A stretch of 64,000 bases of DNA from Tilletiopsis washingtonensis (taxonomy: Eukaryota; Basidiomycota; Exobasidiomycetes; Entylomatales). The notes under the pieces were generated by a model. The model had not been told where the DNA came from, made no database searches, and saw only the letters and a program-made list of their open reading frames with translations. Positions within the stretch are counted from its first letter, which is position 1, and each line of letters starts with the position of its first letter. Below are positions 21,565 through 59,115 of the stretch, one piece after another. The translations under genes were made by a program, and so were the position numbers. The stretch spans positions 341,649 through 405,648 of the forward strand of contig NW_020312015.1 in NCBI RefSeq assembly GCF_003144115.1, written 5' to 3'.

Positions 21565-24327
21565 CTGCCTGCCGTCGCCGGGCACCAGCATGGCGGCTTT
21601 GCCTAGGCCCGCCTGTCGGGCGCACCTGTTGCCGGGATACCTCCCCTGACTCTTCTCCGCTACATCCAACCTGACCCCGCATCTCTCTCTCACCCCACAT
21701 CAACCCATGACCCGGGGCCGTGTGCCCAACCCTGCGCTCGCTCTCTATTCTCTTTCTCGCGCTCTCCCTCTCTTTCTCCTGTATCCAAACGACAACACAC
21801 CTCTCCCATTCCCCCTCGGCACTGTGGTCCCCTCCTCACCCCTCTGCGGCGACGAAATGCATGGGCGCGCCGTTCCCGACGCGGACTAACTGAGACACAC
21901 CGCGAGTGAGCGAGACAGGTGGCACCGACACACATCCGCCATCCTGCGTGCTGATGCAGGATGGATGAGGCGATGCATACACTCGCTGTGGGACGACGGA
22001 TCACGATGCGAGCTGACCTTATATGACGCGGCCGGCGGGAGGGCGCCTCGGGGTTGCTGTGAGATGGCGCCCTTCCTTGGCAGCGCCGTACCGTCGGGAA
22101 CGTCGCCGACGCCGCAAGAATGCCGAGCCGACGGCTCGGCGTGCCAAGGCTTGCGGCGCATCGCCGACATGCAGCCGCTGTCCAGCTGTCGTGCGAAAGG
22201 CGCCAGCCACTCGACTCGACTGTGGCTGCTGTGTGCCGTGGCTGCGCCGGATGCCGCGGCTACCAGCCGCCAGCGATCGGAGTCGGAGCCGGCGTCCCAT
22301 CGCCGTGAGAATAAGCATGGCGAGATGCAGCGGGAGCAAGGAGCAGCTCCGTTGATCTCGACGTCGCACAGCGCGTAGAGGCCGAGGTCTACCTCTTCGC
22401 TGTCTCTGACGCTGACGCACGTCAGCCTCGTCGTGACGAGCTCGCAGCTCGCGAGGAAGAAGGCAGCGTCTCGCTTGGCGGCGCTCGGCTCGGCTCCGCG
22501 CGACGCTGCGGCGCAAAGCAACCGGCGGCCCTGGCTGCATGCGTGCGGTAGATTCGCCTGCCGCAGAGCTCGCGCTGCACGCACCTCGGCTGCCGCCGTG
22601 GCCGGATCAGCAGCGAAGCGCACCATGTGCCTTCGGACAAAGCCAGAGGTTGCGCTGTGCGAAGAGTCGAGCAGCTGCAGCTGCACCTTACAGCAGAGGG
22701 GTGCGGCATGCTGCGGCATGGCGTCGTCTGCATGCTGCGGCTGGTCGCAGGACAGCGCGCGCTGCTGCCGCAGCCGTGCGAGATGCGTTTCTTCCCGCCG
22801 AGCAGAAGCGGCTCAAGCGAAAGGAAGAGAGGGCAGATTGCCGCAGCGGGACAACAGGCATGATGAGCCGTCTCAGAGCTCTTGCCCTCTGAGACGCAGC
22901 AGGACGCGCTCTCGAGGCCGCTCAGCAGGGGTCCGGCAAGAGGTCATGCGCTCGGCAGTCTCATTTGCTGCTGCTGAGGCGGCTTCATGCTTCTCTGTGC
23001 TTCGAGCTGTGGTGCTTTGCAGCATGAAGTGGGAGGATGCTCTGCCTCGCTGTGCTGATGCGCTGCGCTGTGGAGCTCGAGGTGCGACCTCCTCCTTCCC
23101 TTGTCCCTCGTCCCCCCCGCGGGCCGGGCCATTGGCCCGCGTGCGTATCATCCTCGCGGCCTTGCTGCGGCGGCCCAACTGCACCTGGCCGCAGCCGCAG
23201 CTCTGCGCAGGATGCCATGCTGAGAAGGGCAGCGCAGCGCCTGAAGCAGCCCTTCTGCTCGACGAGCTCGCATGCCTGCCTCTTTCTACTCTGCGGCAGG
23301 ATGCGGCTGTATCTTCTCGTATGCGGAGCGCCGCCGCACCCGCCGCGCTTGCGCGCCAGCAGCTTTTATGCCGACCGGCTCGGCGCCGAACGGCAGCCCG
23401 CCAGCATGCAGCCGCAACCACCACGGGCCTCGTCGAGTGGTGCCGGCGGAGCCGAATGGAGCACGAAGAGGAATTCGAGCGCAACGCCAGCCGAGGAGCT
23501 GCTCGCCATCCTCGATGGCCGCAGCAGGTGCACTGCCTGCAGCGCCGGCGCGGGATCGGGTCAGGCGTGGGCGGCCCAGCGCAATGGGACGCCTCCTTGG
23601 GCGATCTGCGCCGCATACGACGTCCGAGGGTGAAGTGCCGCAGTCCAGCCCATCAGCCCTGCCGTCGGAAGAGGTGCGGCAGAGTGGTGAGAGGCGTCGT
23701 CCCGTACGCCGCTGCCGGATGCCGAGGCCTGCCTGCCACTCTGCCGCTGCTTTTCCTTGTCCTCGCCGTCGTCGTCACCGCGCAACGCCGGCTTTGTCGA
23801 GCCGAGCGGAGCGCTGCAGCTGCACGCTGCACCGCGCCCTGCATGCTGCAGCACAAAGGCCGTGCCGATACGAGCATGCACGACTTGCATGGCTGAGATC
23901 GTGCGCAGTCCCCGGCGCAGCACCGCTGCGGCGGCTGCCGGTGCGGGTACGCCATGGGTGGAGCGCCGCGCCGCGGCAGCGAGCGGGAAGAAAAGGAGCG
24001 CTGCTGCACGAGGTGCTTAAGCTCGGGCGGAGCAGCGCAGCAGCAAAATCGCAGAGGGAGCCGCGAGAGGCACGCAGACGGCGTGCCGCTTCCGTGTGCG
24101 GCAGGTGCAGGCGCGGCTGAGCTCCAGAGGCAGCCAGCTCCGGCGCTGCTGCCGCGGTTGCCCTTGCCCGCGCCCGCACCGCACCGCCGCCGCCGCCGCC
24201 GCCGCTGCCCGTCGCCTCTCCGCCTCCTTCTTGCCCGTCCGCTCTCGGAGCCGAGCTGTCCCCTTGACCTTGCCCTGTCCTGCAGCCCTGCTCCGCGGCC
24301 CGCTCCGCTCCGCTGCCGCACGCACCG
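21565..24327. other. Long gene-free stretch before the Zn2Cys6 gene
   Basis: About 2.76 kb between tandem genes, the longest non-coding gap in the window. It starts with a C/T-rich 3' flank of calcineurin. Long frames exist on both strands (for example 22433-23896 plus, 22873-23616 minus), but they overlap each other, are rich in Arg, Ala, Cys and His, lack intron-exon signals that extend them, and show no recognisable motif. I treat the region as an extended promoter/5' UTR for the transcription factor, or as a place for an unrecognised non-coding RNA. The last 150 bp before 24328 is a clear pyrimidine-rich leader. Confidence 0.5.
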
Positions 24328-27300
24328 ATGGAGGCGCCCGACTACGCCGCCCTCGCGGCCGCCGGCCCTTCCCACCACCATCACCACTCCCTGCACGCCC
24401 TCGACGCCGCCTTTGCCCTGCCCCTTGCCGAGCACGCGCAGCACCCGCCGCCGCCGCCGCAGCAGCAGCAGCCGCAGCAGCACTTCGGCCCGCCCGATCT
24501 GCTCCCACCGCAGCAGCAGCAGCACCACGCTCCGCCGCACAGCGCCTACTCCCATCACCAGCAGCACCTGTCCTTCGGCGACGGGTCCGACGCCGGGCCG
24601 TCCGCCTTCTCCAGCCCGCTGCAGCACGCCGCCTGGCCTCCACCGCCGCAGGCGCAGCAGCTGGCCTTCCACGCGCCGCACTCGCGCTCCGTCTCCGTCT
24701 CGTCGCGCGCCCAGAGCCCGTCGAGCGAGCTCTCTGCGGCGTTTGCACTGCCCGTCTCCACCTCGGGAGGCCGCGGCGACGCCGTGCCAGGGCCCGGCTG
24801 GACGAGCCGCGTGCCGCCGTCGCAGGGCTCGTCGCGCCGCATCTCGCGCCTGGCTGCCGCCGCAGCGGGCGTGCCGGTAGAGCAGCAGCTCTTCGACTAC
24901 GGCTCCTCGTCGCTCGACAGCCTCGCGGCCAAGCCGCTCTCGCGCTCCAGCTCGCGCCGCAGTGGCAAGGAGCAGCCGCCTGCCGCCGCTGCTGCTGCTG
25001 CTGCGCCCAAGATGCCGCGCGCCGTGACGCCCGAGGAAGACGCAACTGCCGCCGCAGATGCTGCGACGGCGGCGGGCAAGGAGGCACAGCGGCGGCAAAA
25101 CAGCAGCTGCGACGCCTGCCGGCAGCGCAAGGTGGCGTGCAAGAAGGTGGCCGGCGAGGCCAAGTGCGTGCACTGCAAGGCCAAGGGCATCGAGTGCACC
25201 ACCATCTACATCCAGCTCGCGACCGGCGGCACGAAGCCGCGTCCCATCAAGCGGCCACGCACCGGCGGCGAGGACAGTGCAGCCTCGCAGGCGCCCGAGG
25301 ACAGGGGCCCCAGCCTCGTGCGCTACCTGCTGCTGCGCGACGCCGAGTACAACATCAATGTGACGGGCCTCTCTTACGAGACGGGCTCGGCCTCACCGCC
25401 GCCATCGCGGCGCAACGTGCCGTCAACGGCGGCAGAGACTCGCCTGGCGAACACGCAGGCGCGCGCCGACTTCTGCTCTGACCTAATTGAGACGTGAGCA
25501 GCGTGACAAGCCCGGCGACCCTATGCAGCCTGCTGACTCTCTCTTGCGACAGCTACTTCTCCATCGTGCACATCCGATACCCCATCATCGACCCGGACCT
25601 CTTCCGCAAGCGCTGGCACGACCGCTCGCCGGAGCTGGGCGGCCCGCCGCCCGACGTGCTGGTGGCCGTCATTCTCGCATGGGGCGCCAAGTACTCCGAG
25701 TCGCCCATCATCGTGGCCGACCGCGCCGAGACGGCGCATGAGCTGACGCCGCGGCAGAAGCAGAAGCGCGAGGCGGTGCAGTCCGCCAAGTCGACGTCGA
25801 CGCTGCTCACGGCGCCCGTGACATCGACGTCTGCGACCGAGACGCAGTGGCTCACGGCGCCGCGCGACGTTGTCAATCCAGCTTCGGCGCGCGAGGCAGC
25901 CACTGTCGTGGGCCGCTCGCGCATCGCCGAGGACCTCATCGTCAAGGCACAGGAGGTGCTGGAGCGACAAAAGGCACACCGCATCGCCACGATGGACAAT
26001 GCCAAGGCCTGCCTCATTGTGCAGGCTCTCTTCTGGCAGCGCGGTCTCGACGATCCGCGCGGCGCCATGCAGCAGGGCCTCTCGGGCAGCGAAGGCACGG
26101 TGCGCCCGCGCAAGCGCGGCGTGTACATGTGCAACGGCGTGTGGATGGTCTCGGGCCTGCGGCATCTGATCGAGGTGCGTCTGTGCGCATGCACGCGGCA
26201 GCGGAGCCGTTCGCTGACTTGTGCTCCCTTTCTGCAGCTGCAAGTGCACCTGCAGGAGACCGTCAGCCGCATCGACGACATGCGCGTGCGCGGCGAGGCC
26301 GTCATGACGTGGTGGCTCGCCTGCATGATGGACGCGCACATGGCTGCCATGTTCCGGCGCAAGCCGCATCTCGATCTCGAGGACTACTCGGTGGAACTGC
26401 CGTTTCCGCCGCCCGAGGCGCCCGGAGAGGGTCCTGGCCCGCTGTCCAACGCGCAAAGCCACCGGTGAGTGGGACGTCTAAAGCAGGCAGGCGCGACATA
26501 CACTGACCATGCTGTTCCCAGCATCTGGCTCGACTCGGCGCGCGAGCAAGTGGAGCTGATGCGCTCCGTCTACCCTGCGCTCTGGACGCCACATGCGGCG
26601 GCCGTCGGTGTGTCGTCGCGCCGCCTCGACGAGCTTGTCACACTGGCCTGTCGCTGGCGCAGCAACCACCTGGCGCTCGTCGGTGCGCCGTCACCCACGT
26701 GGCCGTCGAACTGGAGCTTTGCGTCTGCCGTGACGGCGGCGGCGTCGGACATGAACTACCACCTCGTCTGGATCTTCATGTTCCAGGCGATCGAGGAGTT
26801 CGGCATTGCCGAGCTCAACGCCGCCAAGGCGCAAAGCTCCTACTCGCGCAGCGCGCTGCGGCACGGCGGCAGCGACATCGAGCTGGACCTCGGCAAGATC
26901 CGCGCGATGCAGGCGCGCATCTACGACGAGGCGCTCAATGCGTCGCTGCGCTGTGCCTCGCTCTCGCAGGTGCTGACGAACAATGGCTACCTGCGCCTCG
27001 AGGCCGGCATCATGAAGGTGACGATGAGCGAGGCCGGCTACTGCCTGGCACACTTCCGGCGCCCCGAGATTCTCTCCATCATCGACGGCCTGCGGCAGTA
27101 CGGCCAGGCCTTCGAGGAGTGCTACGACCAGGCCGACGCGCTGCAGACGCTCGCCGCCGAGTACATGGAGGGCCTCGACACGGCCGAGCCGAGCAGCGGC
27201 CCGGCCATGGGTCAGGACGTCGGCTCATCCGTCGGGCAAAACCACCGGCGCACACAGCCGCTGCCGCAGCGCGGCGCACATATCAGCTCGGCGCCGCCGG

Positions 27301-30718: not shown

Positions 30719-32211
30719 ATGCTTGCCCGCTCCGCCCTCCGCTCCTCGCTGCGTGCCGCCGCGCCGTCGGCGCCGCGCATGTTCAGCTCCTCGGCCGCCG
30801 ACCGCCACGCCGTCGCCGTGCTCGGTGCCAGCGGCGGCATTGGCCAGCCCGTGAGTGCGCTGAGCGCGCGGCGGCCTTCTGCTGCGCCGGCCTGCGGAGC
30901 CGTGCAAGCGGCCTCGGCTGCCGCGCCGTCGCACTGCACTGTCCCTGCCATGCTGACACGGCCCTGTCCAGCTCTCGCTGCTGCTCAAGAACGACCCGCT
31001 GGTGACGTCGCTGCGCCTCTTCGACGTGCGCCTCGCGCCCGGTGTCGCAGCCGACATTGGCCACGTGAACACGCCCGCCGTGGTGCGTCGCCCAGAACAT
31101 GCTGCACTGCCGGACTGTGCACTGATGCTCGCCGCAGACCACCGGCTACTCGCCCGACGGCCCCGAGGGCGGCCTCAAGAAGGCGCTCGAGGGCGCCGAG
31201 CTCGTCGTCATCCCCGCCGGTGTGCCGCGCAAGCCCGGCATGACCCGTGACGACCTGTTCAACGTGCGTGTGCTGCACGAGCCACACCACAGCAGCAGCA
31301 GCAGCAGCAGCAGCAGTAGCAGCATCTGACCCGTCTGTGCACAGACCAACGCCTCGATCGTGCGCGACCTGGCCAAGACGGCCGCCGAGGTCTGCCCCAA
31401 GGCCCACATCCTCGTCATCTCCAACCCCGTCAACTCGACGGTGCCCATTGTCGCCGAGGTGTTCAAGAAGGCCGGCGTCTACGACCCCAAGCGCCTCTTC
31501 GGCGTCACGACGCTCGACGTGACGCGGGCCAGCACGTTCCTCAGGTGAGTGCTCGGCCTCTCAGCCGCCCGCAAGTGGCGCGGGCTCACCCATGCCGCCT
31601 CCACAGCGGCATCGCCGGCGCCAAGCCGAGCGAGACGATTGTGCCGTGCGTCGGCGGCCACTCGGGCCCGACGATTGTGCCCCTGCTCTCGCAGGCCGCG
31701 CAGGGCTCGGCCGTCAAGGCCGGCGAGGCGTACGAGAAGCTCGTGCACCGCATCCAGTACGGCGGCGACGAGGTCGTCAAGGCCAAGGATGGCGCCGGCT
31801 CGGCCACGCTCAGCATGGCCTACGCCGCCGCCGTGTTCAGCAACTCGCTGATGCGCGCCATCGGCGGCGAGAGCAACGTCGTCGAGTGCACGTACGTCGA
31901 CTCGCCGCTGTACAAGGACCAGGGCGTCGACTTCTTCAGCTCCAAGGTGACGCTCAGCGGCGAGGGTGTCGGCGAGATCCACCCCGTCGGCAAGCTCTCC
32001 GCCGAGGAGGAGAAGGTGCGTGCGAGATGCGCGCGCGCAGTGAGATTGAAGCTGACATGCTCGCGCACGCTTGCAGCTCATGGAGGCCTGCCTGCCCGAG
32101 CTCAAGAAGAACATCCAGAAGGGTGTCCAGTGGTGCGTTGAGCGGCCTTAGCAGTGCACAGTGTGATGCTGACGCCTATCTTGTGTGCGCAGGTACGGCG
32201 AGAACCCCTAA
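30719..32211 (+). CDS. MDH1: Mitochondrial NAD-dependent malate dehydrogenase
   Basis: Seven exons: 30719-30850, 30972-31082, 31138-31263, 31345-31544, 31607-32015, 32077-32132, 32193-32211; 350 aa. A mitochondrial presequence rich in Arg, Ala and Ser ([20 protein letters not shown]) precedes the Rossmann start [20 protein letters not shown]. The substrate-binding and mobile-loop motif [19 protein letters not shown], then [11 protein letters not shown], and the region around the catalytic His ([18 protein letters not shown]) are intact. It interconverts malate and oxaloacetate in the TCA cycle and malate-aspartate shuttle. The third intron carries a (CAG)9 tract. Met21 could serve as an internal start giving a shorter product, though I see no second promoter. 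It ends 235 bp before a convergent gene. Confidence 0.96.
31290..31316 (+). repeat. (CAG)9 microsatellite in an MDH1 intron
   Basis: Nine perfect CAG units lie inside the intron between 31263 and 31345, followed by a TAG/CAG variant unit, upstream of the CTGAC branch site. It creates many spare AG dinucleotides but the used acceptor is the last one. Confidence 0.9.
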
Positions 32212-32446: not shown

Positions 32447-35400
32447 CTAGTCTTTCTTCTTGGACCAGTGCTCCGAGCAGATGGCGAGCAGCAGATTGAA
32501 GGCGTCGTCGCGCTGGGCAGCGCGCAAGGGGACGTCAGCAGAGGCAGTGCAATGGCGGCGCGCGAGACGCTGTCACGCACGTGGCTCATGTTGGAGAAGA
32601 AGAGCGATGGCTTGCTGGAGCGCTGCACCTGCAGGCCCGACGAGCTCCACACCAGCAGGCGGATGGACCTGTGGGCAGGTGCGCGCGGGTCAGCAAGAGT
32701 CGGTGCGCTCAGCTGCTCATCCTCCACGCACTTGGTCTTGACCAGCCCGGCAATGTCCTCGAGCGGCGTCTTGCATGTCTTGTGGCTGCGCTCGGGGCGC
32801 ACCGAGTGCAGCGCGACAAAGTAGCTGCCGTCCGAGAGATGCTCATGAGCGTTGCGACTGGCAGGGCCGAAGGTTCCGCTGACTCACATCATGCGCGTCG
32901 TGATGGTCAGATGGCCGGGAATTGCGTTGTGCTGGCAGAAGAAGCTGCCCAGCTTGCGCGGCTGGCGAGCGTGGGGTCAGGCTATGCCATCGCCACCAGG
33001 GCCGGGCCACCTGCTCACCTTGAGCGTCTCGACGCCGTCCTTGACGACACGCTCCTCGAGCGACAGCAGGCCCTCGCCCTCGCGCAGCGGCCGCATGGCG
33101 CCGTGCGCCACGGCATGTGCGGCCGAGGAGCGCTTCTGCGGCGTGAGCATCTTGAGCGGCGACTTGCTCTTCATCTCCTCCGCCGCGCCGGCCGGGGCAG
33201 CAGCCAGGCCGTCCTCGTCACTGGGCGCGCGCTGCAGCGTGGCGCCCTTGGAGACCTGCTTCTCCAGGTGCCGCCGGCGCAGCAGCTGGATGGCAAACTG
33301 CGCGTCGGTGGGCGAGCCCCAGAGCACCCACCATACGGGCGACAAGGGCCGTCGGTAGCGCGGATAGTGGCTCTGCAGCGGCAGCAGGATGAAGAAGGTG
33401 AAGCCGAGCAGGAGCCAGAGGAACTTGGCGATGTAGTACGTCGGCGTCACCGCCACCAGCACCGTCACGACGCCGAAGATCGAGAGCGTGCGCCATGTCG
33501 CCGTTGGGTTGCGCCAGAGGATCAGGTTCTTGATCTTCTCGTGCTGTGGTGGGGCATGAGCGGGCGCGGTAGTTCACTGTGCTGGTGTCACTTACGCCAT
33601 CGGCCAAGTCGCCAGCAGCAATCTGCGAGGCGAGACCGAACTGCCAATGCCCGTCAGCGAGGCTCTGCGTCTGGATTAGCGGGGAAACGCACCTTGACCA
33701 CCCAGCGCTTGTAGATCTCGAGCACGTCCAGTCGTGATCTCTGTCGGCGCTGTCAGCCTGCGCAGCAAGTCGCCTGGACGATTCACTTCTTACTCACGCG
33801 TCGGAGCCGCTCTGCAAGCTTGTCGGCCTCGCGGCCTCGGGCCATGCGCTTGCGCACCTGCTCGTGCAGATACGAGGCGTCGGGCGGGAAGAAGCGGAAT
33901 TGCATAATCTGCAGAGCACGTTTAGCAACGGCAGCTGCGAGCATGCCCGTAGCCGGCTTACATAGAACATCAGGATGCTGCGGCCGAGCGTGTGTCAGTC
34001 GACAGTCTCGCAGTCTGCTGGCGGCGTCACTCACAGCAAGAACGCAACAAAGATGCCGTCGATGTACCACAGCACAAAGTAGGCCATCGCTGCCGTGCCC
34101 GTGCGGCGCGGGCTCTCCCAGCGGTACATGCGCCGAGCACCGAGCAGGAAGCGCTCCCAGAAGGGCGCGATGATGTAGAGGCGCTCGACGTGCGAGCGCG
34201 CCTTGCTCTCGCGGTACGACTGGTCCGGGCTGTTGTCAAGCTCCTCGGGCGCGTAGCGCTCGATGAGCGCGAGGATGTAGGCGATGCAGAATGCAATCGT
34301 GTCTACCCTGGGCTCGCCGGCCATGCTGCTCTCGACTCCCTCCGAGGCAGACACGAGCTCCCACGACTCGCCGTCGTGCTTGAGCGCCGCCGACGGGTTG
34401 CTCATGAGCGCCTCTGCACGAGCTTCTTGCTCCTGCTCTGCCGCCTCTTGCTCCTCCTTTCGTTGCCGTGCCTTTGCCGAGGCGGCCTTGCCCTCTTCCT
34501 TCTTGGCCGCACGCTCCGACTTCTCGAGGGACCGCTGCCGCAGGCCTTCGAGGTTGTCCTCCGGCGCGCCAAAGACGGCCGCGCCCTCGTCCGTCGACTG
34601 CGGAACGTAGCCGTCGTCTGTGGCCCACGTCACATGCGGGCTGCCGGCTCGACCGCCCTCTCGCGCCTTTTTGCTGTTCTTGTCCAGCTTCACGGGCGTA
34701 TCAGCGAGCATCTGCTTGCTGCGACTCGGAGGCACTCCGGGGCCCTGATCTTCGGCCAGGCGCTGCAGGCCGCGATCGACGTGAGTCAGCACCGTGACGC
34801 GCTGCCCTCGCCGTGCAGCAGCGACTGCCTCCTCGGGATCCACGCGAAAGTCATCGAGGCGCGGCATTCTGCGCTGTGGAAACGTCAGAGACTGCGGCAC
34901 GCGCACCTCGCGCGTGTGTCGGCCAAAGTTCGAGAGGAAGCTCTCCAGCTCGAGCTCCTCGAGCTCCAGCAGAGGCTTCTGCAAGTGGTGCGAGGCGCCG
35001 CCGCTGTGCAGCGAGAAGACGCCAGACGTGTCGTCTGAGCCGTGCGACTTGAGCGAGATGGTCGAGGGGTCGCGGTCCTCGGACACGACTTCAAGGAGCG
35101 ACGAGGACGACTCGGAGTCAGACTCGCCACCCAGCACGGGTCCTGCTTTGTCTAAGGCCTCATCGTCGGAGCTGTCTAGCGCAGAGCCGACCAGTGTGGT
35201 GGCGGCGCGAGCCTCCTCGTCCGAGCCCGAGGACTCGACGGCGCCGCAGATGGCCGGCGCTTTGAGCTCTTTGACCGACGTGGGCCGGCTGGCGTGTGCG
35301 CTGCTGCGCCGCGAGTGGCTCTTCCTCTGCCGCGAGCCGTCAAGATGTCCGTGGTGCCTCAAGTCGCCCGGAAAGTAACCGCGCTCCTCGAGTGTCGGCT

Positions 35401-36094
35401 CGGCGCGAGACTTGGGCGGACTGCTGCCCAGCGCCTCGCCGCTCAGCGCCGCCTGCTTGCCGCCCGAGAAGCTGCGGCGCCCTTTCTCGCGCTTGCCCGG
35501 GTGCTTGGCCAGGTAGAGGTCGCGCGCAATCATGCGTGCCTCCTCCTCCTCGAGGCGGTCCTTGAGGTCGGATGCTGCCAAGAACTTAGCGTAGTCGCCC
35601 TCAGTCGCCTTGCCGACTATTGCAGGCGTGTGTTTGCCGCTCGATGGGCCGCTGCTGTTGCTGTGACCGGCAGCATGCCTGGATGTCGGGCGACTGCCCG
35701 AACTGCGCTCCTTGCGGGGCGATGTGCCGTCGCCGGCCTGAGGCCGATTTCGCAGGGTGCTGGCTAGCGACCCTAGGACACCGCGCGGGGCCGCCTTTGA
35801 GGGACCAGCCGCCGGCGTCGTCTCGTCGTCCGTGTCCTCGCCGCCCATCATTCCGTAGGCGCCCAGCATTGGGTAGGCGTCATCTTCGTGAGCGCGCAAG
35901 GCTTCCTGCCTTGACGGGCCAGCAACGTTCTCTGCGGCCATGCTGACCTCGTCGCTTGTGGCGGAGTCCGAGTGCTTGGGCAGGAGCAGAGGATGGATGG
36001 GATAGGTCTCCTCGGCGCTCGCGTCGGATGCCGGCGGCTGAGCGTCCTTTAGCTGTTGCCGCGCCTCGTCATCTTCAGCTTCCGTGCTGTTCAT
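32447..36094 (-). CDS. GRAM-domain membrane protein (GRAMD4-like layout)
   Basis: Ten exons on the minus strand: 36094-34035, 33977-33962 (16 nt), 33908-33798, 33740-33693, 33640-33596, 33543-33019, 32961-32888, 32824-32732, 32668-32581, 32512-32447; about 1041 aa. The first 550 residues are acidic, Ser-rich and probably disordered, with a charged Lys/Glu/Ala-rich helix near 520-560. Then follow WERFLLGARRMYRWESPRRT, a hydrophobic segment (AMAYFVLWYIDGIFVAFLL), a second one (IFGVVTVLVAVTPTYYIAKF and the following LLLGFTFFILLPL), and a C-terminal GRAM domain (AIPGHLTITTRM, RSHKTCKTPLEDIAGLVKTK, GLQVQ, RDDAFNLLLAI). GRAM domains bind membrane lipids or proteins. The order membrane segments then GRAM resembles animal GRAMD4, but function is unknown. 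The exon 7/8 junction is the least secure: its 63-bp intron has only a weak branch site. Confidence 0.8.
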
Positions 36095-51849: not shown

Positions 51850-53957
51850 ATTCCCCCCAGCGCCAACTTCCCCATCCCATGCTGCGTCACCCTCAGACCT
51901 GTTTCGGAAGCTCGAGAATGAATCGATACGACCACTGAACGCGTGGAAGCGCGACTGCGTGGTGCCAGGGAGACGAAGAGGAAGTCTGGTGGAGCTGGCC
52001 GTCGCACGGGGCGCGCACACGAGCGACGGCTGCCGTGGCGCACCATGCCGCCGTGCTGCTGTCTCGCGGATGCGTCTTGTTGCGCATCTTCCTTCGCCTG
52101 CATCACCACAGCGATGGGCAGACTGAGCGGAGCGAGCAGCCAGACTGCCAGGGGCTCTATGGTGCATGACTGTGCTTCTACCTGCGCGCGAGCCTGTTCT
52201 GGCAAGCTTTGCTCGTGCATGCCTTCGACGCTGCCCGTCTCTGGCAACTGTCCGAGCGCCGAGCGCGCTCTGGCTCTGCTCTCAAGAAGATTCGACGAGA
52301 CTCCCTTCGCTCGAAGGCCCACATCCGAGATTGACTGCTAGATGTGATACGAGTTCCTGCCATCTTCAGTACAGCAGTGGGCTCGGCGTCCGGAGCGTCT
52401 TTCTGCGATCGACGTCGTCTGCCTCAGTAAGAGTGCTTGAGTCTGCGCCGCCGGCGTGCGCCCTGCATCTGCCCCGGCTCCGATGGACAAAAGTTGCGTC
52501 TCGAGTGCATCGTGCATAGTGTGCATTGTGCATCATTCACACGACAACGCACTCCTGCTGCAGACGCTTCTGGCCGGACCCGCGCTCTGCAGCAGCCCAC
52601 GGCTGGCCGGGCGTGAAAGGGAGGCGGGCGTAGCGGGCGTCGCAGCAGGACGCGCGCGCGTCCGATGCTGCTCCCGTCCTCGGACCCGTCGAGCTCAGCC
52701 GCCCAGACCGCAGAGGCACCTCGCTATCTCTGGCTATGCTTCCCCCGCACCCGGCTTCTGCACCCTGCTGGCGGCTGCATCTCTGCATGTCATGCATGTG
52801 CTCTGGCCGCTTGGCCCGTATCTGTCAGACTTGCAGACGAGCGTGCGATGACGGGACGTCTACCGGTCCGCCGAGCGTGTGCTTCCGCTCTCGTCTCTGC
52901 AGCTCAGAATGCGGGGCCCCTCATGGACTAGATTGTCAAGCCGACTGCGTGAGAGATGCTGCCCTGCTGCTACGCGGATCGTCGTCATCCCTCGCTCCTG
53001 TCCGCTGTGCTTGCCGGCCGCTGTCCATAGCTGCCGCAGCAGAGAGAACGCAGAGCATGGCGGCACACGCCTTTCGCACGGCTGGCGAGCACCCTCGTCT
53101 CGTCCGAGACGAGTCCCGGGCACGGCAGACGACGCCCAATGTTGAGCACGCAGCACGCGCGACGCAGCACGCAGGCCTCGAACTGTTGAGCCTCGCTGCG
53201 GCGTCTGCATGACCCCGTCTGCTGCGGGCTGTCTGCTGTCGTCAGGCGTGGGGCCGACAAGAAGCGTGCCGAGAGAAGGGCGGGCTCCTGAGCTTCCGCA
53301 ACCTCCCGGCGCGGCGCATGGGTGCGTCGGGACGCGCCGGCGGCTGAGTTCTGCAGGCTGCGGCCGCAGAAAAGTGCGCGCGACGACGCCTCTCCGCTGC
53401 GCCGCCTCGATGCTTTGCTGGCAAGCAAAGGCCGTGCCTTCGGGCATGCATGGCGTCTCGACTCTGACTCTCGAGCATGGCACGAGTTTGCCGTGCCCCG
53501 TCGAGCTGAGCTTGCGCTTCGCTGCTGCGCCTGCAAAATGCGAATCTGCTCGTTGGGTGCCGGGCGGGCAGCTGTGGTACCTCTCTGCCGTCTTGAGGAG
53601 GTGCGCCGCGCGGCTAACGAGACCTCCACGCCGGCACCGTCCGAGCGCCGAGGCACGCGACCCGGCCCTGCATCGAGGGTCCCGCCGCCGCGCGGCACCG
53701 GCAGCGCCCGCAGCTGTGGCGCCCGCAAGCCGCAGCAGGCCGCCGCCGCATCGCACCGCTCCGAGCGTGTGCTTCTTCGAGCCTGCCGCCTGTGGCTCGG
53801 GCTGTGCACCCCGCCGCCGCCGCCGCCTCATCAAAGCTGTGTCTTGCACCCAGCCTGTCCTCCTTCAGCTCCCTCACCTCTGCCTCTCTTCGCTCACCCT
53901 CCTCATCACCTGCATCACCTGCATCTCATCACCCCCTCACCTCCTCCTCGGCCCAGC
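51850..53957. other. Gene-free stretch before the malic enzyme locus
   Basis: 2.1 kb between tandem genes. Frames on both strands (for example 52860-53849 minus) have Arg/Cys/Ala-rich translations and overlap one another. The last 120 bp before 53958 is strongly C/T-rich with CCTCATCACCTGCATCACC steps, like a 5' leader, supporting a transcript start there. Confidence 0.5.
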
Positions 53958-54236
53958 ATGGCCCCGCCGTCCGCGTCCGCCGACGACAAGCTCAACCTGC
54001 TCACGCAGCCCTCGGCCATCGCCGCGCCGCCGGCGACGAAGCGCGACAAGCCGCCGCAGCCGACGCCCGACCACAAGACGAGCGATGATCCGGTGCAGGA
54101 CATGGTGCGTGTTGCTCGCGCCTCTTGCCGCCTGCTGCGAGCCGAGCAGCTGATCAAGCGACGACGATCCAGGTCCACCTCGCCGCCTCGCGCGGAGGAG
54201 GCTTTGCCAGTCTGCGCGACCCCTTCTCCAACCAAG
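53958..54236 (+). CDS. Alternative 5' exons of malic enzyme (putative cytosolic isoform)
   Basis: Two exons, 53958-54104 and 54173-54236, are joined by a standard 68-bp intron (GTGCGT, CTGAT, CCAG). They encode MAPPSASADDKLNLLTQ and so on, ending SLRDPFSNQ plus one base. The malic enzyme family has a conserved L-RDP-x-x-N-x-x-TAF element, and the mitochondrial first exon of the gene downstream carries [17 protein letters not shown]. Inside that exon, AACGCAG|AC at 55345/55346 is an acceptor in the right phase: joining 54236 to 55346 gives [17 protein letters not shown] with no gain or loss of residues. The product would be 611 aa without a mitochondrial presequence. Alternative reading: a decayed 5' duplicate of the gene. 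No other continuation of these exons makes sense. Confidence 0.6.
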
Positions 54237-55047
54237 GTGCGTGCGCCATTCTGCAGAGTGTGCCCTGCGTCTCTGCTCCGTTGCGCCATGGGTCTCTGAG
54301 CCTTGAGCTAGCCGGTGCAGCGCCGAGGCGGGCGCTCGCCAGTCGTCTCTGCGGTGCTGCCAAGGAGTGGGCTGCCCCATGCCGCGCTCCACGCCGAGGG
54401 CATCAAGTGTTGGGCTCTGCCAGCTTGGCGGCTTGTCCTTCATCCTGCCGCTGCGTGCCCGCGTCTTGGCGGCGTTGCGCCGCTGCATGTCGGCGCCGGG
54501 GCTGCCGGTGCGGTGCTCCGAAGAGACAGAGATCGAGAGAAGGCCGTGCCGCAGCCGCCGGCGGCGGGCTCTCAGGCACGGGCCAACACCTCCTCCTCGG
54601 AGACGTTCGGGACGCTCATCCTGCGGCGCTGCGGCGCCCGCGCCAGATTAGATTTTGCCGCATGACGCTCGCGGCCCCTGCCCGCTGCCGTGCGGTACCG
54701 CGCGCTGCATCTCGAGAAGATCCGATGCGCGCGCTCTGGCGCGTGCAGACGGATTCAACGCCCGAGTGCCGAGTCACGCGCGCGCGTGCTGCGGCGGCAT
54801 GGGCAAGGGCGAGCAGCGGTGCCAGCTTCGTGCTTCACCTCCTCCACCACCTCTCTCCACACCCGTCGCCGGGCTCAGTGCATTGTGCCAGCGTCCAGCG
54901 TCTTGCGTTGGCCCCCGCTGCGACGCTCTGCTACGCCCTGTGCGCGTCCTGATCCTGATCCTCGCCTCTCCGCACCTCTGAAACCCCTCAGCGGCCGGCC
55001 TGCTCGCCGCTGCTGCCTCGGCCACGCTCGTTGCCGCCGCCGCCGCG

Positions 55048-57577
55048 ATGCCGCCACGCTCGCTGCCGCCGTGGCGTGCCGCGGTGAGCGGCGGTGCCGT
55101 GCGCACGCGTGCTGCTGGCGGCCCGCTGCGTCGCGCAGCTGCGCCGCCTGCTCTGTCGGCGCGGCCGTTCTTCCCTGCCTCGGCGTCTGCGTCTGCCCCG
55201 CGTTGCCAGCCCAGCTTCTCACGCCCTCTCCACTCCGGCCCTGCCGCCTCCTCTGCCCCTCTGCCCTCTCCGCACGCCCACTCCGAACCCGACTCGACCG
55301 CCACGCCTTCCACCTCGCTGCTGCGCGACCCCTTCGCCAACGCAGACACGGCCTTCTCCGAGAAGAAGCGCGACGAGCTCAAGCTGCGCGGCCTGCTGCC
55401 GCCGGCCCAGCAGTCTCTCGACGTGCAGATCCTGCGTGCCCTCGAGCAGATCCGCGTCAAGAAGACGGACCGTGAGTGGGGACGCGACGCAGATCGCGCA
55501 CCGATGAGGACCCCCAGCTGATGGCCGCTCGTGCCTGTCAGTCGGCCGCTACATCGCCCTCGCTGCGCTGCGCCAGAGCAACGTGCGTCTCTTCTACGCC
55601 CTCATCATGCAGAACCCCGAGGAGACGCTGCCGATGATCTACACGCGTGAGCGCACATGCTAGCAGAGCTTCAGCAGCAGCGGCGCTTCTGACACGCACC
55701 TGCGCAGCCACTGTCGGCGAGGCGTGCCAGAAGTTCTCGCGCATCTTCCGCCAGCCCGAGGGCCTGACCATCTCGCTCTCCGACAAGGGCAACGTCGCCA
55801 GCATTATCGACAACTGGCCCGTGCCCGCCGGTGCGCCGCGCATCGCCGTCGTCACGGACGGTTCGCGCATCCTCGGACTCGGCGACCAGGGCTGGGACGG
55901 CCTGGGCATCAGCATTGGTGCGTCCAGGAAAAGCATTCTGTCTCCTCTGCACTTTCGCTGACACGCTTATCCGCTTCGCAGGCAAGCTCTCGCTGTACGT
56001 CGCCGCCGGCGGCATCCACCCGCGCGCCACGCTGCCCATCGTGCTCGACGTGGGCACGAACAACGAGGACAAGCTCAAGGACCCGCTGTACCTCGGCCTG
56101 CGCCAGAAGCGTGCCAGCGACGAGGAGGTGCTGCCGCTGGTGGATGAGATGATGGAGGCGCTGCAGAAGGCATACCCCAACCTCATCGTCCAGTTCGAGG
56201 ACTTCCAGAGCGAGCGCGCCTTTGCCTACCTTGACCGCTACCAGAACAAGTACCGCATGTTCAACGACGACATTCAGGGTGAGCAGACGCCCGCCGCGCC
56301 TTGCATGCGGCACACACTCATCCATGCGCTCTGCCACAGGCACCGGCTCGGTGATCCTTGGCGGCTTCACCAACGCGGCGCGCCTCAACTCCAAGGCCTC
56401 GGGCCGTCCGCTGTCCGACCAGCGCATCCTCTTCTTTGGCGCCGGCAGTGCGGGCGTCGGCGTGGCGAAGCAGCTGTGCGCCTTCTTTACGCGCCAGGGC
56501 CTGAGCCAGGACGAGGCACGCCGTCGCATCTGGCTGGTCGACTCCAAGGGCCTCATCACCAATGACCGTGGCGACAAGCTGGCGGAGCACAAGGTGAGCA
56601 GGGCCGCAGAGGACGGAGGCTCATGTCGCGAAGCTGACCGCCCTTCTGCGCAGGTGTACTTCAGCCGCGATGACAATGAGGGCAAGCAGTACAAGGGCCT
56701 GCTAGACGTCATCAACTACGTCAAGCCGACGGCGCTCATCGGTCTCTCGACGGTTCCCAAGACGTTCACCGAGGAGATTCTGGCGCGCATGGCCGAGCTG
56801 AACCCTCGTCCCATCGTCTTCCCTCTCTCCAACGTGAGCACGCAGCTCTTCTGGCCTCGTTCTCTGTGTGCTGTTGCTGACCGCCTGCTGCTCCCCAGCC
56901 ATCGTCGCTGTCCGAGTGCGACTTTGAGACGGCCGTGCAGGCCACAAAGGGCCAGGTCATCTTTGCCGCCGGCTCGCCGTTCCCCGAGACGGACTACGAG
57001 GGCAAGCATCTCATTCCGGGCCAGGGCAACAACCTCTACGTCTTCCCCGGCATTGGCCTCGCCGGCGCCCTGGCAAAGTGCGGACGCATCAGCGACGAGA
57101 TGATCACGGAGTGTGCGTAGCGCGCCGCGCGGCTGGTCGAGCGACGCAAAAGCTGTAGAGGCCCAGTGCACTGACCGATCGCTTCCTTTTTGAACAGCCG
57201 CTCTCGCCCTCGCTGACAGCCTGAACGACGAGGAGAAGGCCGAGGGCCGCATCTACCCGAGCCTGAAGCGCATGCGCGACATCAGCGCCTACGGTGAGTT
57301 GCCCGAGGCGCGGTTTTCTTGCTATCGTCTCACTTCTTCTGCTTGCGACAGTCTGCGCACGCGTCATCATCATGGCCAACCGGCAGGGCCACGCGCGCGA
57401 CGGCGGCTACACGGCCAGCATGACCGACGACGAACTCGTGTCGTGGTGCCGTGGCGAGATGTTCGAGCCTTCGTACGGTGCGTAGCGCGCGCGCGAGAGA
57501 GACAGAGAGGGAAACTCTTTGAAGCAGCTCATGCTTACGCTGCGCTTTCCCGGCTCGCAGAGAAGCTGCTCGCCTAA
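55048..57577 (+). CDS. MAE1: Malic enzyme (mitochondrial form)
   Basis: Ten exons: 55048-55471, 55542-55646, 55708-55917, 55982-56278, 56340-56593, 56654-56833, 56899-57112, 57198-57293, 57352-57477, 57561-57577; 640 aa. Oxidatively decarboxylates malate to pyruvate, making NAD(P)H. The N-terminus is Arg/Ala/Ser-rich ([20 protein letters not shown]) and fits a mitochondrial presequence. Family motifs: [42 protein letters not shown] (substrate/Lys region), [10 protein letters not shown] and FNDDIQGTGSV (metal site), [12 protein letters not shown] (dinucleotide fold), [57 protein letters not shown] or NADP preference cannot be settled by eye. A second pair of 5' exons upstream could give a cytosolic form. 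The 3' end lies 242 bp from the convergent COQ4 stop. Confidence 0.95.
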
Positions 57578-57819
57578 AACAGAGGCAGAGCAATGCGCGC
57601 GCGCCGCGATGCGTCACCACTTCCTCCCTCTCCCACACGCTTCACCTGCTCACACATGGTTCACACTTTCTTGTCACGATGACCCGCTTCGATCTTGACC
57701 CACATGTGCCCTACTTGCCTCTTTCCCTCTTGCGTACTAGCCGTTGCGCCTGAGGCACGGCCGAACGCTGAGACAAATGACACACACACACACTGGGCTG
57801 CTTACGAACATGCTGCTTG

Positions 57820-58904
57820 TCATTGCGCTGCGGGAGTGTGCTGCTGCTCTGACGATGCTGCGCTGGCTCTGCGTTGCTCCTCCAGCACCTTACTTGGCCA
57901 TCTGCCTCTCATCATGCCGCTTGCCTTGCTGCGGCCTTCGTAGTCTACGCGGCTGGGCAAAGGCTCCTCGAAGCCGAGTTCCGCGCGCATCTCATCGAAG
58001 TTTTGCTCCCATCGCTCCTCCCAGTACACGCCAATCAGCGGCTTGACGCGCCTGCCCTCTCGCCATGCCCAGCCCGCCAGTCCGCCGCCGGCGCCGCCGA
58101 AGAGCTGGGCGCGCTCGGCGGCGCTCAGGCGCAGCGGACCGGCGAGCGAGGAGAGGTAGGAGACCGGCAGGCCAAAGTGCGCCGCCTCGAAAATCTTGAC
58201 GACCGTCTCGCCGAGATGCGACACGGGCATGAGACACAACACGTGGTGCATGTCGTGCGCCTGTCGGTTGCGCGTCATGACGTAGCGCAGCGTCTCGTCG
58301 TTGACGTGAAGCACCTGAAGGAGAGAGAGAGAGCCTGTTCAGCCATGCGCCCACTTGTGTCTGCGTTCCAACGCCCCCTGACCCCCCTGCCCACTCCCTC
58401 CTCCCTGCCCCTTGCCGGACCACCCTTGAGCTGTGGCAGTGCCGGACGCCCCCTTGAGCTGTGGCAGGGCCGCTTCGGCTGTAGCAGCATCGCCTTCTTT
58501 ATCCTGCCCGCCCCCCTGACCCTTTCTCCCTCTTGCTCCCTCACATCCTCGCCCTTTCCCCCGCGCCCACGCCCTGTCACCTCGACTCACTTCGGCGCGC
58601 GTGTCCGGGCCCACATTGTTCCAGTCGAGCCAGCGGGTATATTCCTTGCCAAACGTGCCCTCCTGCAGGCCTCTAAGATAGGCCATGTCGACGCTCTTTG
58701 TGTGAATCTGCGGGCGCTGCAGCAGCACGCGGCGTCCCTCGGGCGAGGCGAGCATGGCGTCGCGCAGCGCCGGCAGCACGGGCTCGCCGCTGAGCTCGGA
58801 GAGCAGGGCGATCATGTCGCCGCGCGCCGGGTTGTGCAGCGAGGCGACGGCGGCGCCGGTGCCGAGCAGGACTTTGTGCAGGAGAGAGATGGGCTCAGGT
58901 GCGG

Positions 58905-58947
<43 letters not shown>

Positions 58948-59115
58948 GCGCTGGCTGGACGAGGCGAGGGCGCTGCAGTGGAGGCGACGAGAGGAGGAGG
59001 AGGAGGAGGAGGAGGAGGAGGCAGCAGCAGCTGCAACGCCGGCGGAGCGCGCAGACGGCATGCCTGGGCGCAGCGAGGCTGCTGGCCGTGCGGCGAGACG
59101 TGGCAGCGCAGCCAT
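57820..59115 (-). CDS. COQ4: COQ4, ubiquinone biosynthesis protein (mitochondrial)
   Basis: Two exons on the minus strand: 59115-58591 and 58314-57820; about 339 aa. The N-terminus is presequence-like (MAALPRLAARPAASLRPG) and interrupted by two long poly-Ser tracts. The mature part shows LHKVLLGTGAAVASLHNPARGDMIALLSE, YLRGLQEGTFGKEYTRWLD, TRAEVLHVNDETLRYVMTR, and the Zn-binding HDxxHx11E motif HDMHHVLC...HLGE. COQ4 is part of the coenzyme Q synthome on the matrix face of the inner membrane and is linked to C1 decarboxylation/hydroxylation. The last 50 residues beyond FEEPLPSRVDYEGR are less conserved, so the stop at 57820 is less certain. The 276-bp intron contains an imperfect tandem duplication. 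It is transcribed divergently from the beta-galactosidase gene with only 307 bp between starts. Confidence 0.92.
58414..58467 (-). repeat. Imperfect 27-bp tandem duplication in the COQ4 intron
   Basis: On the plus strand GCCGGAC...CCCTTGAGCTGTGGCAG occurs at 58414-58439 and again at 58441-58467, with one inserted base and a few changes. It lies entirely within the intron. Confidence 0.85.
58907..58945 (-). repeat. COQ4: (CTG)13 tract coding poly-Ser in COQ4
   Basis: Thirteen CTG units on the plus strand; on the coding (minus) strand they read AGC and encode a run of Ser in the presequence region. Confidence 0.9.
58991..59020 (-). repeat. COQ4: (GAG)10 tract coding a second poly-Ser in COQ4
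   Basis: Ten GAG units on the plus strand; on the coding strand they read TCC and give a second run of Ser, with a codon of a different type from the first tract. Confidence 0.9.

Follow-up and report, generated by a model that had tools for sequence, protein, structure and literature searches.

Can one malic-enzyme gene serve two compartments of the cell? The question is raised by a locus in a 64-kb window (the whole stretch of DNA analysed here), where two different coding 5' ends precede a single malic-enzyme core. Judging from the sequence, we consider it probable that this one locus gives rise to a cytosolic and a mitochondrial protein through alternative promoters, each with its own first exon. 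If this is true, the fungus sends malic enzyme, which supplies pyruvate and reducing power, to the cytosol or to the mitochondria by promoter choice, and annotation pipelines with one model per locus miss one compartment. It would also be a second gene structure, beside that of Cryptococcus MAE102, that achieves dual placement.

Gene structure and products

The window has a G+C content of 0.61-0.72 (2-kb steps) and contains intron-bearing eukaryotic genes. By homology, the gene product is an NAD(P)-dependent malic enzyme of the eukaryotic type. Its core matches the Pfam families PF00390 (220.3 bits, cut-off 23.1) and PF03949 (294.6 bits, cut-off 23.5). Against PDB entry 9e6m, the 640-aa form scores 491.8 bits (alignment from residue 86) and the 611-aa form 495.1 bits (alignment from residue 51). 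The observed part of the two-form reading consists of gene anatomy, homology, coding bias and splice-site statistics. The features of the locus, in positions of the window, are:

53820-53957 (+), pyrimidine-rich leader and putative promoter 1 of the cytosolic form; 80% C+T in the last 100 nt
53958-54104 (+), upstream coding exon 1; 49 codons, ATG at 53958
54105-54172 (+), upstream intron; 68 nt, donor GTGCGT, CTGAT 19 nt before the acceptor
54173-54236 (+), upstream coding exon 2; ends GGGFASLRDPFSNQ plus G
54237-55345 (+), proposed intron of the cytosolic transcript; 1109 nt, donor GTGCGT at 54237, predicted splice
54850-55047 (+), leader of the mitochondrial form with putative promoter 2; C+T 67% over the final 100 nt
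55048-55345 (+), putative mitochondrial presequence part of the first exon; ATG at 55048, ends LLRDPFANA
55215-55345 (+), AG-free pyrimidine-rich stretch with acceptor CGCAG (55341-55345); from AG count and synonymous-codon test
55346-55471, 55542-55646, 55708-55917, 55982-56278, 56340-56593 (+), exons of the shared malic-enzyme core, first half
56654-56833, 56899-57112, 57198-57293, 57352-57477, 57561-57577 (+), exons of the shared malic-enzyme core, second half

Upstream exons 1 and 2 read as 49 codons, then VHLAASRGGGFASLRDPFSNQ, then a single G. The AG of the candidate acceptor occupies 55344-55345, and the following two bases complete GAC (Asp). Both coding 5' ends join the same core in frame, and both frames are open: 611 aa when 54236 is joined to 55346 vs 640 aa from the mitochondrial start (lengths without stop). 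The 54236-55346 join is exact in phase, with a motif spacing identical to that of the mitochondrial form. Nine further introns of 58-85 nt each interrupt the shared core, and the proposed 1109-nt intron is 13 times as long as the longest of the gene's other introns (85 nt), a length that weighs against it. The initial annotation had placed these exons, the ending SLRDPFSNQ plus one base and the acceptor CGCAG at 55341-55345 correctly to the base, and recomputing its statements on phase, motif spacing, product lengths and the 1109-nt intron returned the same values.

Upstream exon 2 aligns with the N-terminal motif of PDB malic enzymes, which carry SGYTLLRDPHHNKGLAF (9e6m) and RGYLLTRNPHLNKDLAF (2aw5) before the core; we take 9e6m to be a plant enzyme and 2aw5 to be human ME1. 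By this comparison, RDPF is the conserved, ordinary start of malic enzymes. Because the acceptor lies downstream of the motif, each alternative 5' end must carry RDPF. The motif had been singled out as a duplication; two copies are indeed present, but they are not a special device, as the enzyme itself requires the motif in both 5' ends.

The upstream exon fits the beginning of a malic enzyme better than the mitochondrial exon does. Against the 24 closest PDB sequences, which include many versions of one and the same protein, the 611-aa form outscores the 640-aa form in 21 cases, and the 640-aa form scores higher in three (8e76, 1llq and 6ags). All stop-free 13-mers of the window in six frames (106,080) were also ranked against a profile of four PDB segments, three of them nearly identical; here the upstream motif comes first with a score of 30.0, ahead of the runner-up at 24.25, and the mitochondrial copy comes fourth with 22.25. 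When a single plant segment served as reference, the upstream and mitochondrial sites ranked 1 and 3; human ME1 as the sole reference put them at 17 and 146 with the 13-mer, and at 3 and 77 with a 12-mer. At the DNA level the two exon ends (54211-54236 vs 55320-55345) share 22 of 26 bases, the next best matches to the 26-mer exon end in the window being 19/26 on the plus strand and 18/26 on the minus strand. A pattern scan for relatives gave no matches in viral contigs and 13 in prokaryote genome contigs, none of them a relative.

Coding and splice signals of the upstream exons

Upstream exon 1 has a GC3 of 0.96 and a codon log-odds of 26.7 bits. None of 2,611 stop-free windows of the same length in the flanking DNA reached this value (maximum 7.4), the background of the log-odds being drawn partly from that same flanking DNA. 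Exon 2 is short and less extreme; its log-odds was reached by 17 of 3,986 windows.

Splice matrices were built from 24 introns, namely ten in the malic-enzyme gene (one of them the upstream intron) and 14 found elsewhere by script. The donor AAG|GTGCGT at 54237 is in the top 3 of 3,064 plus-strand GTs (top 0.1%), and that at 54105 is in the top 0.6%, under a donor model that leans to the motif GTG[AC]G[TC] (nine more script introns had been excluded because their donor did not fit this motif or because they exceeded 90 nt). The acceptor of the upstream intron (54105-54172) has the lowest score, 0.7, in the leave-one-out test. The codons at both junctions are rare. The donor junction has CAA (0/24 Gln codons in the core, 16/240 in other genes), and the acceptor junction has GCA (4/49 Ala codons in the core, 11% in other genes). 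These rare codons count in favour of the two-5'-end reading.

The candidate acceptor at 55345

With the 24-intron matrix the acceptor at 55345 scores 3.2, a value reached by 16.7% of plus-strand AGs. When the upstream intron was left out of training, the score was 2.1, which beats only three of the 24 introns in the leave-one-out test (range 0.7-10.2). No CTNAY occurs within 60 nt before 55345, and such a site is present in 23 of the 24 training introns; the nearest site of this type is CTCAC, 124 nt upstream. The low score and the lack of a near CTNAY speak against efficient use of this acceptor. Some alternative acceptors are known, however, to combine a far-off branch site with a long tract free of AG.

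The acceptor is favoured by the 129 nt before it, which contain no AG and are 74% C+T. Only 5 of 4,132 AG spacings on the plus strand are as long, and the AG-free distance before the 24 training acceptors is 8-61 nt. Since long AG-free runs also turn up where no acceptor is known, such as 57589-57739 just beyond the stop codon, the coding constraint itself was tested. When the peptide was recoded with redrawn synonymous codons, the probability that no AG arose was 0.0003 under three codon tables, and 0.0004 or 0.0006 when the test was repeated; the chance of equally many pyrimidines was 0.0001 or less. Under a codon table taken from the presequence itself, tested stretch included, the probability of an AG-free outcome was 0.069. 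For AG, the statistic was the AG-free run up to the acceptor, and this run also set the stretch in which pyrimidines were counted; for the presequence as a whole the values are, by codon table, P = 0.003 or 0.0009 for pyrimidines and P = 0.004 or 0.0025 for AG. The same bias test was unremarkable in all five control stretches (distal presequence, shared exon part, upstream exon 1, upstream exon 2 and COQ4 presequence).

Taken as a whole, the homology of exon 2, the codon bias of exon 1, the near-consensus donor and the biased synonymous codons before the acceptor argue for the two interchangeable 5' ends that the initial annotation had suggested.

Leaders and predicted targeting

It had also been claimed that both starts follow pyrimidine-rich leaders, which holds at 80% C+T in the 100 nt before 53958 and 67% before 55048. 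On both strands together, 0.05% of 100-nt stretches are as C+T-rich as the leader before 53958. Three other gene starts that were tested are likewise pyrimidine-rich (65-73%), so pyrimidine richness may be widespread before gene starts in this DNA. The first 60 residues contain 9 basic and 0 acidic residues in the 640-aa form, and 6 basic and 7 acidic residues in the 611-aa form.

Discussion

In the mechanism that we propose, promoter 1, before 53958, would drive a transcript whose two short exons code for an N-terminus that has no presequence and ends in the conserved motif. This transcript would be spliced from 54236 to 55346, with promoter 2 and the presequence removed as intron, and would encode the 611-aa cytosolic enzyme. 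Promoter 2, within the 1109-nt intron, would drive a transcript in which 55048-55345 is retained to code for a mitochondrial presequence, for a product of 640 aa. We infer both transcripts, the use of the acceptor at 55345, both promoters and both localisations from the sequence.

More tentatively, and with somewhat more doubt than belief, we suggest that the core-proximal 130 nt of the presequence have a dual use, as targeting peptide on the one hand and as pyrimidine tract, AG-free zone and acceptor on the other, and that the presequence was perhaps born from an intron. Dual use would place the codons of this stretch under two constraints. As for its birth, the 3' end of an intron in a cytosolic gene may have turned into a coding exon after a promoter arose inside that intron. 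The codon signature, with no AG and a surplus of pyrimidines at synonymous sites, may serve to reveal acceptors hidden in exons from DNA alone.

Three other accounts of the upstream exons were weighed. It is unlikely that they are used but joined to another acceptor, at 54991, 55138 or 55541, even though each of these is in phase. The acceptor at 55138 scores higher than 55345 (4.3 to 5.1), and CTRAY sites lie 33 and 39 nt upstream of 54991, but 54991 itself scores -0.8, and with either of the two the first RDPF would lie far from the core and the product would carry a buried presequence. The acceptor at 55541 is of a proven type, as it belongs to the shared gene and has a CTGAT 20 nt away; its use would skip the whole mitochondrial first exon, staying in phase since 55346-55471 measures 126 nt, and would lose TAF...RGLLPP, which is aligned in all five PDB alignments displayed. 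Among the acceptors considered, the motif spacing is kept by 55345 only. We therefore rank 54991, 55138 and 55541 below 55345, because with them the spacing is broken, the presequence buried or conserved core lost.

The 22 of 26 bases common to both exon ends would also suit a remnant, namely a 5' end left over from a malic-enzyme copy, duplicated or older, and no longer joined to the core, or else a separate short transcript, and the frame of exon 2, if unspliced, continues to a stop at 54952. We regard this as quite unlikely, in view of the open frame and strong codon bias that exon 1 retains, the near-consensus donors and the codon selection in the acceptor context. Open frames and a short peptide match can also arise by chance in GC-rich DNA, and stop-to-stop frames of 40 aa or more that overlap 53000-59000 number 88; with the codon log-odds, the motif rank and the donor rank all extreme, this explanation is very improbable. 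The reading with two 5' ends joined to one core at 55346 is the one compared below with known systems.

The closest known case appears to be MAE102 (CNAG_06374) of Cryptococcus neoformans, which would serve the same purpose by a simpler route. In the available text of the report on it (PMC11302930), the upstream of two starts yields a protein that carries a mitochondrial signal, chiefly in stationary phase, and the other, 19 bp past the annotated ATG, yields a signal-less form found in cytosol and nucleus in exponential phase. The two starts and the two forms were demonstrated by TSS-seq and tagging, and this use of starts is under Tur1 (PMC11302930). That text terms the product malate dehydrogenase and does not contain the word "malic"; we take MAE102 to be a malic enzyme from its name. 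Common to both systems would be one basidiomycete locus with two starts and forms with and without a mitochondrial signal, which in the present case are predicted from the DNA. They differ in that MAE102, as far as its report describes it, uses a simple truncation, whereas in the present gene the presequence would give way to two additional coding exons upstream, and the candidate acceptor sits within the exon of the other form. The order of the starts is also reversed, the mitochondrial start here being the downstream one.

A different solution is described for the GC-rich yeast Rhodotorula diobovata, where cytosolic and mitochondrial malic enzymes come from two separate genes (PMC8074367, in the text available). 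The present genome region is likewise GC-rich and would provide both enzymes, but from one locus with two 5' ends. In fungi generally, alternative starts turn an N-terminal signal on or off, according to the accessible part of a review (PMC9604717). Dual placement by alternative starts is already known in fungi, and it is the gene structure that differs here: unlike in the dual-localisation cases in the available text of that review, the candidate acceptor of one form lies inside the presequence-coding exon of the other. That arrangement is not described in the text available, and the words "first exon" occur zero times in the review's main text (PMC9604717). A literature search that reached only the smaller part of the subscription journals found no fungal malic enzyme with alternative 5' ends beyond MAE102 (PMC11302930).

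Genomic context

Scans of the 64-kb window for tRNAs and Rfam families gave no matches. The nearest identified gene upstream of the malic-enzyme gene encodes a dihydroxyacetone kinase (PF02733 and PF02734; 50014-51846, plus strand), with a gap of ~2.1 kb to the malic-enzyme start. A COQ4 gene (PF05019; 57960-59115, minus strand) is convergent with the malic-enzyme gene, and its presequence has long serine runs and AG-rich coding (20 AGs in the first 70 codons). The window holds two malate enzymes, as a malate dehydrogenase-like gene (30966-32130, plus strand; PF02866 in the last long segment) lies ~23 kb from the malic-enzyme gene. An eL8 ribosomal protein is also encoded in the window, and its best PDB matches are fungal entries; these matches, with gene structure and base composition, suggest a fungus, probably a basidiomycete. 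Long codon-biased segments are located at 25548-26159 (plus strand) and 34049-35620 (minus strand), both without a Pfam match at E 0.001. The window's longest plus-strand AG-free stretch is at 21605-21893, with 288 nt between AGs, in a region that also holds a script-placed intron on the minus strand.
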